From Candidatus Parepulonipiscium sp. PG-Nun2H_MBin03 (GTDB lineage Bacteria; Bacillota; Clostridia; Lachnospirales; Cellulosilyticaceae), in the NCBI GenBank assembly GCA_001995005.1, contig MDJN01000134.1, forward strand, positions 1 to 44,951: 44,951 nt of DNA, in the 5' to 3' direction. Shown one piece after another: positions 3,529 through 8,430 of the stretch. Below the pieces are notes generated by a model that saw only the letters and a program-made list of their open reading frames with translations, searched no databases and was not told the DNA's origin. The position numbers were made by a program, and so were the translations under genes. Every line of letters starts with the position of its first letter. Within the stretch, counting starts at the first letter, position 1.

Positions 3529-3558
3529 AAAGCCACCAAAATTGCTTTGGTGGTTTTT
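3529..3558 (+). terminator. Rho-independent terminator of corrinoid operon
   Basis: Stem aaagccaccaaa/tttggtggtttt (12 pairs with one G-T), loop attgc, running into ttttatttta. It lies 7 nt after the ASKHA gene stop and also lies just past the end of the convergent small ORF, so it may serve both strands. Confidence 0.88.
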
Positions 3559-3561
3559 ATT

Positions 3562-3753
3562 TTAGCCAATTAATTTGTTAACGTCTATAGGGACTATTTT
3601 AGAATATCCATTTCCTAAATCAACTAAATGTGAATTATTTACATAATCGATGCATTTTGACTTTGTCATTCTATCTGCTAAACTAATTTCTGTGTATGGG
3701 TTGCAAAGATGTTCTCTAGAGTGTCGGCTAGATGAAATAATTATCTTTTTCAT
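3562..3753 (-). CDS. Small hypothetical protein, third gene of kinase cassette
   Basis: 63 aa, not recognised. It starts MKKIIISSSRHSREHL and has several Ser/Arg/His residues early, then 'NPYTEISLADRMTKSK'. No membrane segment or metal motif is visible. I accept it as real because an AGGAGG site ends 7 nt before the ATG, it lies 16 nt downstream of the kinase gene on the same strand, and it stops right at the terminator 3529-3558. The first residues resemble the beta-strand opening of small cytosolic folds, but no function can be given. As a short partner of a Ser/Thr kinase and rich in Ser/Thr, it could be a substrate or inhibitor; this is a guess from context. Confidence 0.6.
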   Translation of the reverse strand: MKKIIISSSRHSREHLCNPYTEISLADRMTKSKCIDYVNNSHLVDLGNGYSKIVPIDVNKLIG

Positions 3754-3769
3754 ATAATTACCTCCTATT

Positions 3770-4585
3770 TTAAATATTATTTATAAGGCTTAAATCATTC
3801 ATAATTTGTATAGTATTAGTATATCGTTTAGTATTATCAACAGATAAAGCTTTTAATACTATTTGCTTAAGTGAGTGAGGGATATTAGCGGAAAAGACTT
3901 TTCTGTCCGGAAATCGCCCTTTTAATGTAGCATGCATAAGATCTGTGGGTGTGCTAATTTTTTGGAGCATACAGGTTTTATTAAAAATATTATCCTCATT
4001 GCAAAGCTGATACATGGTTAGTCCTATTTGAAAAATATCTGTTTGCACAGTGTGTGCCAATGCTATATAAGACTCAGGGGACCTGTGTTGTAAGTCCATT
4101 ATGGGCTGTTTAACAATACCGTATCTATCCATAAATTTTGATAATCCAAAATCAGTAATCAATGCTTTGTTGCTAGAATCAAGTAGTATATTAGTAGGCT
4201 TGATATCCAGATGCAGCAGGTTGTTTGAATGTATGTAGGTAATTGCACATAATAAGTCTAGTGAATATTTAATAATCTCACGTATAGTAAGGCATCTTGT
4301 TTGCATCAGTGAATGCAGGGAACCTCTATTATAATAAGGCATGGCTAAATAAATATTTTCGTGGTCTTGTGCGGCGTATTGAATTTTAACTACATTAGGG
4401 TGTTTATTGGCGTATATTATTTGAGATTCTAAAAAATATTTATCAACATTAAATTTACTTTTAGATATTTGTTTGATTACTAATTCCATATTTAGTTGCA
4501 CATCTTTTGCGAGAAAAAGCGTAGAATTATTTCCTTCTAAATGACCTATATCCTTTATTTTAGTAAATTTAATAAATCCCGTCAT
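3770..4585 (-). CDS. Soluble Hanks-type Ser/Thr protein kinase
   Basis: 271 aa, a bare eukaryotic-like kinase domain. Visible parts: 'VIKQ' with the ATP-anchoring Lys38, catalytic loop HLDIKPTNILL with Asp127 and Asn132, metal-binding DFG at 145-147, and SPE in place of the usual APE near 169-171. The catalytic loop has HLD rather than HRD, so it is a non-RD kinase that may not need activation-loop phosphorylation. Unlike PrkC-type kinases of Firmicutes it has no transmembrane helix, PASTA repeats or other sensor domain. It overlaps the upstream gene by 17 nt and has its own AGGAGG site, so the two are translated together. Soluble kinases in compact small-gene cassettes occur in signalling and in phage-defence loci. 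Nothing here decides between those. Confidence 0.85.
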   Translation of the reverse strand: MTGFIKFTKIKDIGHLEGNNSTLFLAKDVQLNMELVIKQISKSKFNVDKYFLESQIIYANKHPNVVKIQYAAQDHENIYLAMPYYNRGSLHSLMQTRCLTIREIIKYSLDLLCAITYIHSNNLLHLDIKPTNILLDSSNKALITDFGLSKFMDRYGIVKQPIMDLQHRSPESYIALAHTVQTDIFQIGLTMYQLCNEDNIFNKTCMLQKISTPTDLMHATLKGRFPDRKVFSANIPHSLKQIVLKALSVDNTKRYTNTIQIMNDLSLINNI

Positions 4586-5075
4586 TAACCTCCTCCTTTA
4601 CCATAACAGCCAAAGCAACTAATATAGCTTCTTGATAATGCAAAGTAACTTCTTGGTTTTCGTCTGTTTTATAGTCTGTTATGTCTAATACTTCACGCAT
4701 CATGTCTGAGCAATTATAAGTAGTTAATTCTAAAATTGTAGATATAGTATTAAATGTGCATAGTAAGTATTTATTAATTATAGTACTAGAAAATAATTCA
4801 ATTAAAACCCCTTCTAGGTTAAATCTAAATAGGTGAGTATGATTTAGATTTTCATACCCTTCTATTAGCTTTATTCCAGCGTAACATACATTATATTGTG
4901 ATATTATAGTTATAATATTATTTCTTATATACGCAAGCTTATCAGGTATATCCATTAAGATAGGAACCTTTAAACTTGATATACTCTTAATAGTATAGTC
5001 ATCTGTGTTATTTGATACAATACAATAATAAATTTCGTTTGCTTTGACTCTAAATCCAATAGATACTTTTTGCAT
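4569..5075 (-). CDS. Hypothetical protein with RNase H-like (DUF3010-like) features
   Basis: 168 aa from the ATG at 5075. The track's GTG at 5084 lies inside the ribosome binding site (aagaaggtgg), so the downstream ATG is preferred. The start 'VSIGFRVKANEIYYCIV' has the strand-turn-strand look of RNase H/RuvC-fold proteins such as DUF3010 (pattern G-x-x-x-K-x-N/S-E), followed later by 'YAGIKLIEGYEN' and a C-terminal helix 'HYQEAILVALAVMV', also typical of that fold. The first catalytic Asp of active RuvC-type nucleases is not evident, so it may be a non-catalytic member. It is the first gene of the cassette and overlaps the kinase gene. The family call is a low-confidence pattern match; the gene itself is well supported. 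Confidence 0.6.
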   Translation of the reverse strand: MQKVSIGFRVKANEIYYCIVSNNTDDYTIKSISSLKVPILMDIPDKLAYIRNNIITIISQYNVCYAGIKLIEGYENLNHTHLFRFNLEGVLIELFSSTIINKYLLCTFNTISTILELTTYNCSDMMREVLDITDYKTDENQEVTLHYQEAILVALAVMVKEEVNDGIY

Positions 5076-5114
5076 ATTGGCCACCTTCTTTTGAACTGCA
5101 ACGTATAATAATAG

Positions 5115-5162
5115 ATACTATTATATTATATTATACTATATTATACTATAACATAATAGTAT
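5115..5162. repeat. AT-rich palindrome with repeated -10-like boxes
   Basis: Between the divergent kinase cassette and dprA. Perfect 10-bp arms atactattat (5115-5124) and ataatagtat (5153-5162) flank a centre of repeated tatat/tatact units. On the minus strand these read as several TATAAT/TATAGT-like boxes, so this is the likely promoter/operator of the cassette. The whole spacer 5076-5262 holds nothing else I recognise apart from the dprA ribosome binding site. Confidence 0.6.
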
Positions 5163-5262
5163 GTATGCAAAACAAGAGTGCATGGGTATTTAATAAATTA
5201 TTTTGTTTAAACTCTTAATATTTTGGTAATTCTTTAATTAGAATTTTTTAGAAGGTGATAAG

Positions 5263-6366: not shown

Positions 6367-8430
6367 GTGGCTAATAACTTAGTAATTGTTGAGTCTGCAG
6401 CTAAAGTTAACACGATTAGTAAATTTTTAGGAAAGTCTTATAAAGTAGAAGCTTCTATAGGGCACGTTAGAGATTTACCAAAGAGCCAACTGGGTGTAGA
6501 TGTAGACAATGATTACGAGCCAAAATACATTACTATAAGAGGAAAAGGAGAAGTCTTAAAAAAGCTACGCAAAGAGGCCAAAGCTGCTAAATGTATATAT
6601 CTTGCAACTGACCCTGATAGAGAAGGAGAGGCAATATCATGGCATTTATATTATGCACTGCGTCTTGAGGATAAAGAAGTTAAAAGGATTACTTTTAATG
6701 AAATTACAGAAGGTGCTGTTAAAGAGGCTATAAAAAACCCTAGAGATATAGATACAAATTTAGTAGATGCACAACAAGCTAGAAGAATATTAGATAGGCT
6801 AGTTGGATATAAGATAAGTCCTATACTATGGAAAAAAATTAGAAAAGGACTTAGTGCGGGAAGGGTACAATCTGTTACCTTAAGGCTAATTTGTGACAGA
6901 GAAAAACTAATAAATGATTTTGTAGAGCAAGAATATTGGTCGATAGAAACTTTATTCAAGATGGGTAAAACAAAAGGTTTTACTGCAAAGTTGCACCACA
7001 AAAGCGGAAAAAAGATAGAAATTAGAAATGAACAAGAGGCAGCCGACATTATAAAAGAGTGTGAGCAGAATAAATATTTAGTACAAGAGTGTAAGACGAG
7101 TAAAAGGATTAAAAACACTTATTTACCGTTTATAACAAGCACATTACAACAAGAAGCCTCAAGACAATTAGGTTTTTCTAATCATAAGACTATGAATATA
7201 GCTCAGCAATTGTACGAAGGGATAAAGGTGGATAAAACTGAGTTTGGTATAGTAACATATATTAGAACAGATTCTACTAGAATATCAGAGACATCCGCAG
7301 AGCAAGCAGCAAATTTTATATTATCAACTTATGGTGAGGAGTACTTGCCTAATCAGAATACTAAAAAGGTGAAGACCTCTAAGATACAAGATGCACATGA
7401 AGCTATTAGGCCGACATATATAGAAAAAACGCCTGCCATGCTTAAAGAGTATCTATCAAGAGACCAATATAGATTATATAACTTAATTTATAATAGGTTC
7501 CTGGCAAGTCAAATGGCATGTGCAATTTTTGATACTCATTCTATTACAATAGAAAACGGAGAGTATACATTTAAAGCAAGCTACCAAAAAGTAAACTTTG
7601 ATGGTTTTCTAAAAGTGTATAATGATAATCCAGAAGATAAGCAAACTAAAACTATAACAGTACAAGAAGGTGAAGAGCTAGAGCCTATCCAAATCACTCC
7701 AAAACAACATTTTACACAACCTCCAGGTAGATTCTCAGAAAGTTCTATAGTAAAAGTATTAGAAGAAAATGGAGTAGGAAGGCCTAGTACATATGCACCT
7801 ACTATTACAACGTTATTAGCACGTGGATATGTTACAAAAGAAAATAAAGTGTTATACCCAACGGATTTAGGCGAGATTGTAAATAATATAATGTTAAATT
7901 ATTTTGATGAGATTGTTGGAGTGGAATTTACTGCGCAACTAGAGATGATACTAGACCAAATAGCAGCAGGCAATATAGAATGGAAAGAAATTATCAAGGC
8001 CTTTTACCCATACTTTAACCAAGCTGTGCAAAAAGCTGAGCTTGAGATTGAAAATATTGATATGACAGAAAAGACTGACATACCGTGTGAGAAATGTGGC
8101 ACCAATTTAGTGGTAAAATACAGTAAGTATGGAAAATTTTTAGGATGTTCAAATTTTCCAGACTGTACTTTTGCCAAGCCTTGGCAAGAAGCTATTGGTA
8201 TAAAATGTCCAAAATGTGCAGGAGAAATTATACTACGTAAAACTAAAAAAGGACGCATATATTATGGGTGCGAAAATAACCTAGATGATAAGTGCGACTT
8301 TATGTCTTGGCAAAAACCTACAGGAGACACGTGTCCTACTTGTGGCGATGCATTGGTAGAGAAAGGCTCAGCAAAAAAGATTGTTTGCAAGAGCGAAACA
8401 TGTAATTACGGAAAAGAGAATAAGAAATAA
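6367..8430 (+). CDS. topA: DNA topoisomerase I
   Basis: 687 aa type IA topoisomerase that relaxes negative supercoils. The Toprim domain opens with 'VIVESAAKVNTISKFLG' and contains DPDREGEAISWHL. The catalytic tyrosine lies in 'YIRTDSTRIS' near residue 298, and 'GRPSTYAPTI' is the usual later motif. Three Cys4 zinc-ribbon modules follow at the C-terminus (CEKCG...C, CPKC...C, CPTCG...C). The start is GTG at 6367 with 'gaaggagtgg' just upstream. A terminator follows the stop. Confidence 0.97.
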   Translation: MANNLVIVESAAKVNTISKFLGKSYKVEASIGHVRDLPKSQLGVDVDNDYEPKYITIRGKGEVLKKLRKEAKAAKCIYLATDPDREGEAISWHLYYALRLEDKEVKRITFNEITEGAVKEAIKNPRDIDTNLVDAQQARRILDRLVGYKISPILWKKIRKGLSAGRVQSVTLRLICDREKLINDFVEQEYWSIETLFKMGKTKGFTAKLHHKSGKKIEIRNEQEAADIIKECEQNKYLVQECKTSKRIKNTYLPFITSTLQQEASRQLGFSNHKTMNIAQQLYEGIKVDKTEFGIVTYIRTDSTRISETSAEQAANFILSTYGEEYLPNQNTKKVKTSKIQDAHEAIRPTYIEKTPAMLKEYLSRDQYRLYNLIYNRFLASQMACAIFDTHSITIENGEYTFKASYQKVNFDGFLKVYNDNPEDKQTKTITVQEGEELEPIQITPKQHFTQPPGRFSESSIVKVLEENGVGRPSTYAPTITTLLARGYVTKENKVLYPTDLGEIVNNIMLNYFDEIVGVEFTAQLEMILDQIAAGNIEWKEIIKAFYPYFNQAVQKAELEIENIDMTEKTDIPCEKCGTNLVVKYSKYGKFLGCSNFPDCTFAKPWQEAIGIKCPKCAGEIILRKTKKGRIYYGCENNLDDKCDFMSWQKPTGDTCPTCGDALVEKGSAKKIVCKSETCNYGKENKK

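Follow-up and report, generated by a model that had tools for sequence, protein, structure and literature searches.

A probable divergent Stk-type kinase cassette, with a RuvC-fold protein and a small third protein, at a chromosomal site in Candidatus Parepulonipiscium

Three minus-strand genes, R, K and S, lie at positions 3562-5075 of the window, the 44,951-nucleotide stretch of Candidatus Parepulonipiscium DNA analysed in this study. The trio is probably a divergent chromosomal form of the abortive-infection cassette of the phage 933W-type kinase Stk, arranged R-K-S, in which control of the kinase has been altered or decay is beginning. All three ORFs, encoding R (168 aa), the kinase K (271 aa) and S (63 aa), were confirmed where the original prediction had placed a three-gene kinase cassette. 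The features are as follows.

4569..5075, minus strand: R, 168-aa pseudo-RuvC protein, ATG at 5075 (phrog_3875, E 2.7e-22)
3770..4585, minus strand: K, 271-aa Stk-type protein kinase, non-RD with HLD, without the C-terminal domain of about 67 aa (Pfam Pkinase 9e-41; phrog_2361 3e-61)
4094..4096, minus strand: Asp164 codon of K (GAC) in the activation segment, Tyr in 68/68 relatives
3562..3753, minus strand: S, 63-aa third gene of the cassette (leave-window-out profile, E 4.6e-18)
3529..3557, unstranded: terminator-like hairpin between S and the converging corrinoid-operon gene (1 found against 0.6 expected in shuffles)
5111..5166, unstranded: 28-nt inverted repeat with no loop just 5' of R (86% complementary; possible operator)

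The trio is located between a corrinoid-activation gene and dprA-topA, and each of its frames is open. The R and K genes share 17 nt, and the K stop is separated from the S start by about 16-17 nt. The strong ribosome binding sites reported earlier were seen as AGGAGG-type sites 5' of K and of S. The start of R is most likely the ATG at 5075; a GTG is also present at 5084. The inverted repeat occupies AT-rich intergenic DNA that separates the R start from the divergently oriented dprA, and from its sequence it may be an operator. Each gene was recovered above chance. R gave tblastn matches in phages, at E 4e-12 to Stx-phage immunity regions and at 2e-10 to SPbeta phages, and K matched its Pfam family. 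A profile made from 10 Bacillota S proteins with the window left out had a single match among 1100 window frames, which was S.

By its PHROG match, K has a kinase domain of the Stk family. K was 34-43% identical to Stk-type kinases, and its catalytic Lys38, Glu53, HLD motif (Asp127), Asn132 and DFG were all intact; Lys38, Asp127 and DFG had already been pointed out in the original prediction. The prediction had also singled out HLD in place of HRD. The motif is indeed present, but HFD, HLD or HMD replaces HRD in all members of the Stk-type family, and by sequence the change is a family signature and no peculiarity of the window kinase. Among plasmids, the top matches of K were Stk-type kinases of Klebsiella, E. 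coli, Providencia and Mesorhizobium, in each case with R in front. A scan of genome contigs with the window K alone as query gave no match. In the kinase tree, K was placed inside the Bacillota group (98/92) on a long end branch of 1.05 changes per column.

We next considered whether the three genes occur together in relatives. Scans led by R yielded 54 and 9 loci on viral contigs and 25 loci on genome contigs, and an independent scan led by K yielded 66 loci on viral contigs. Pooled, these scans gave 71 distinct Stk-type kinases from Bacillota, Pseudomonadota and one cyanobacterium. R was found upstream at all 71, directly adjacent in 68, and the other three were broken kinase frames with R in the locus; R adjoined K in every locus with enough sequence. 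S was found downstream of about 69 of the 71. An ORF of 45-80 aa followed 54/64 Stk-type kinases compared to 45/236 of the remaining long ORFs at these loci (Fisher p 4e-22, for related sequences that are not fully independent). In phi24B and further Stx phages, the match of R (30% identity, E 4e-12) was to an ORF without a name that stands between cI and stk. The SPbeta-like Bacillus phage SPbetaL7 carries the complete trio, S included. Homologues of the three genes therefore occur together almost without exception, which was the check attached to the original prediction, and Stk seems to occupy the middle position in a cassette of three genes. We found no description of this three-gene nature in open-licence papers. 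Among complete E. coli genomes, stk was present in 223 of 5426, about 4%. In Alloyangia, K and S are read as one 403-aa ORF (L096:5443-6651), either a natural fusion or the result of a lost stop codon.

The AlphaFold (AF2) model of R had a pLDDT of 89.5 and a pTM of 0.86, and its best PDB matches were RuvC (4ld0, E 2e-9, TM 0.77). The PHROG family of R carries the name 'RuvC-like Holliday junction resolvase'. R has no Pfam family of its own, a PDB search with the single sequence was empty, and the relation to RuvC was reached through structure and profiles. The profile alignment of R to RuvC is weak alone (E 1e-4), with a plain G-I-[D/R] correspondence in the first strand. Residues R9, E72, R84, E88, E93 and E149 of R were invariant in 42/42 homologues. 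In this alignment, RuvC Asp7 falls on the invariant Arg9, and RuvC Glu66 falls on residue 69, which is Arg in 40 and Lys in 2 of the 42. Only the acid at the Asp141 position is kept, as Glu149. R thus has the fold of the resolvase and lacks its set of catalytic acids D7, E66 and D141. The originally predicted RuvC/RNase H fold lacking the first catalytic Asp was borne out, whereas the DUF3010 label was not, since this family was absent from all searches. With Arg9 and Lys/Arg69 in place of Asp7 and Glu66, R is probably a non-catalytic sensor or regulator, and its sequence suggests that it would have no nuclease activity.

S homologues are 50-75 aa long, mostly basic, and located directly 3' of the kinase, with a conserved tail of the form DLGNGY..I.PID..K. 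The E. coli S is phrog_4063, for which PHROG gives the function as unknown, and Pfam and PHROG searches found no antitoxin or DNA-binding family in S. The window R and S both keep all or nearly all conserved residues. A far relative has a 74-aa ORF with CxxC motifs (MAKCPFCGRRL...) at the S position (L032:3046-3270), possibly a different third component.

The window kinase itself departs from its family in two respects that the original prediction did not mention. In all other complete kinases of the family, a domain of about 67 residues forms the C-terminus, and the window K alone is without it, ending just short of this domain where the profile match stops at 275/343. The domain, modelled from relatives, consists of four strands and a helix (pLDDT 91), and the model had no significant match in the PDB. 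The second departure is in the activation segment, in which all 68 other kinases have Tyr and only the window K has Asp164. The conserved Tyr falls at what we take, from the motif, to be the position of the P+1-loop Thr of Ser/Thr kinases, and it is a putative autophosphorylation site. In total, K departed from its family at 9 positions with conservation of 90% or more, compared to a family median of 1, and these include the invariant Tyr and an invariant Gly (E197), besides the lost C-terminal domain.

Two further explanations of the short kinase were ruled out. The missing domain cannot lie in another frame, as there are only 16 nt between K and S, and S is not a severed C-terminus of K, as full-length kinases have an S of their own, to which the window S is homologous. 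We read the missing domain and the Tyr loss as marks of a variant and not of a non-member, since the evidence on the domain is that family members share it, not that they require it. Together with Asp164, the missing domain may alter the control of K or mark early decay. K may be decaying because its 9 near-invariant departures include the Tyr, the Gly (E197) and the whole C-terminal domain.

Homologues of R-K-S occur in prophage immunity regions, and some chromosomal copies stand beside defence genes. In Paucibacter, an Avs3a-like gene and the PDC-S15 candidate defence gene flank the cassette (L098:1-4545 and 6964-8274), and HKD+Snf2 genes (L102), a dCTPase gene (L091) and DarTG genes (L030) were found beside it in other loci. 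PADLOC reported defence neighbours in 3/6 genome-contig loci, a small sample chosen by hand. Phage defence and toxin-like growth control had both been proposed for the window trio; these surroundings make defence the better guess of the two and growth control the poorer. Two enterobacterial elements carry a DUF3024 gene in the interval from the phage repressor to R (L028:4421-4762 and L029:4317-4424).

No defence or phage neighbours were found around the window cassette. R was not found in genomes of the same genus or in 391 other genomes of the order; the cassette was present in 1/392 genomes of the order, that of the source only, so its conservation in the lineage cannot be shown. When genomes of the same genus were checked for an empty site, the corrinoid operon and dprA-topA were not adjacent. 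A prophage remnant at this place was rejected, as the trio is flanked by core genes and insertion repeats were not recognised. Assembly contamination is unlikely, since the flanking topA is 78-89% identical to genes of the same genus.

The original prediction knew of no described system like this trio; a relative is in fact known, the exclusion kinase Stk of the E. coli Stx phage 933W. Stk is an early case of a prophage kinase aborting infection and is frequently cited, and it has been discussed as a single gene. Its trigger is an HK97 protein of unknown function. As stated in passages of papers citing Friedman 2011, Stk aborts HK97 infection of 933W lysogens (PMC6356687, PMC3564112, PMC3681748, PMC8008677). 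It is made in the lysogen and activated by HK97 infection (passages of PMC3681748, PMC6356687, PMC3564112, PMC8008677 and PMC3430580), and in uninfected cells it has little or no activity, according to a passage of PMC3681748. We compared 933W through close relatives (phi24B, 32deltatox and others). Their kinase is homologous to the window K (about 37% identical), has the same non-RD HxD motif, and stands in the same gene order with the same R upstream and S downstream. In contrast, the Stx-phage kinase retains the C-terminal domain and the activation-segment Tyr that the window K lacks, and is located in a prophage immunity region under pRM, whereas the window cassette occupies a stand-alone chromosomal site. 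The open-licence literature handles stk as a single gene, unlike the three-gene cassette found here. The closest overall group was formed by the cassettes of SPbetaL6/L7 and other Bacillota prophages, with a kinase 43% identical to K and a clearly homologous S; these differ from the window in having a full-length kinase with the Tyr, in lying in prophages, and in being annotated as hypothetical only. By these comparisons, the window has the kinase with intact residues, the overlapping upstream R and the downstream S of an Stk cassette, and is without the C-terminal domain of about 67 residues and the activation-segment Tyr.

Other systems were more distant. PD-T4-6 and Stk2 are single kinases. 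The PD-T4-6 and MADS MAD6 kinases (PADLOC) resemble the window K in the kinase domain only; for MAD6, K scored 102 bits, far under the NCBIfam cut-off of 460 bits, and MADS partner genes were absent. The likeness to PASTA-domain PknB/Stk1 was also confined to the kinase domain (109 bits against the NCBIfam PknB_PASTA cut-off of 450). KKP of Pf prophages is likewise a prophage kinase module, but it consists of two kinases and a phosphatase, with no RuvC-fold or small basic partner. A passage of PMC11341870 describes KKP as a kinase-kinase-phosphatase prophage module with a defence role and Stk2 as a single kinase.

By analogy, the window copy would act like the 933W Stk, and the same analogy suggests roles for R and S. 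R, translationally coupled to K, would most likely sense or gate, for example by recognising a phage protein or DNA that is branched or of phage origin. K, a eukaryotic-type kinase, would be held quiet in healthy cells and turned on by an infecting phage; once active, it would phosphorylate targets and halt growth before phage release. S, small and mostly basic, would probably be an inhibitor, adaptor or substrate of K. We further propose, more tentatively, that the exclusion attributed to one gene is really that of an immune module with three components: a dead RuvC protein that senses phage DNA or a phage protein, the kinase, and a small protein as its link or restraint. The window variant would then carry a phosphomimetic Asp for the switch Tyr and have dropped the C-terminal control domain, so its kinase must be restrained in another way. 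With the trio present in one fixed order in at least three phyla, Stk gains two candidate partners, the dead RuvC and the small basic protein, and the strictly conserved Tyr is a candidate switch. How Stk stays off and is turned on becomes directly testable.

Less probably, the window cassette was gained by transfer, has degraded recently to a remnant and no longer works, its kinase having begun to lose its regulatory parts. The long end branch, the departures from near-invariant positions with the loss of the C-terminal domain, and the absence of the cassette from the same genus agree with such a history, but the three open frames with good ribosome sites, the intact catalytic residues of K and the conserved residues kept by R and S argue against it. 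A kinase toxin-antitoxin module, in which a constitutively toxic kinase is opposed by S or R as classical antitoxin, would fit the compact overlapping operon and a basic S that is nearly always adjacent. We consider it improbable, as the 933W Stk has little or no activity in uninfected cells (a passage of PMC3681748) and no antitoxin or DNA-binding family was found in S.

An Asp where the family has an invariant Tyr could act as a phosphorylation mimic, and the cassette lies amid chromosomal housekeeping genes with its own terminator and a possible operator. Both points would suit a domesticated stress or growth regulator whose Asp164 kinase is always on or differently controlled in normal physiology. 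Such a regulator would be expected to be conserved in relatives, which was not the case, and the family context is prophage and defence; we regard this reading as quite improbable. Hardly credible is an R that is an active Holliday-junction resolvase for DNA repair or prophage recombination and only incidentally linked to the kinase. The RuvC fold, the PHROG 3875 label and the lack of a detected RuvC in 21 lineage genomes speak for it, but every R has basic residues at the D7 and E66 positions, and R stands beside K in every locus with enough sequence. In the underlying survey, RuvC (PF02075) was not detected in the source genome and 20 relatives, and the family was detected in 8/14 control genomes.

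These results favour a divergent Stk cassette as the reading of the trio. In three loci elsewhere in the family (L040, L049 and L055), the Stk-type kinase is split by a frameshift or stop and both R and S are open, hinting that the kinase can be the first gene lost.
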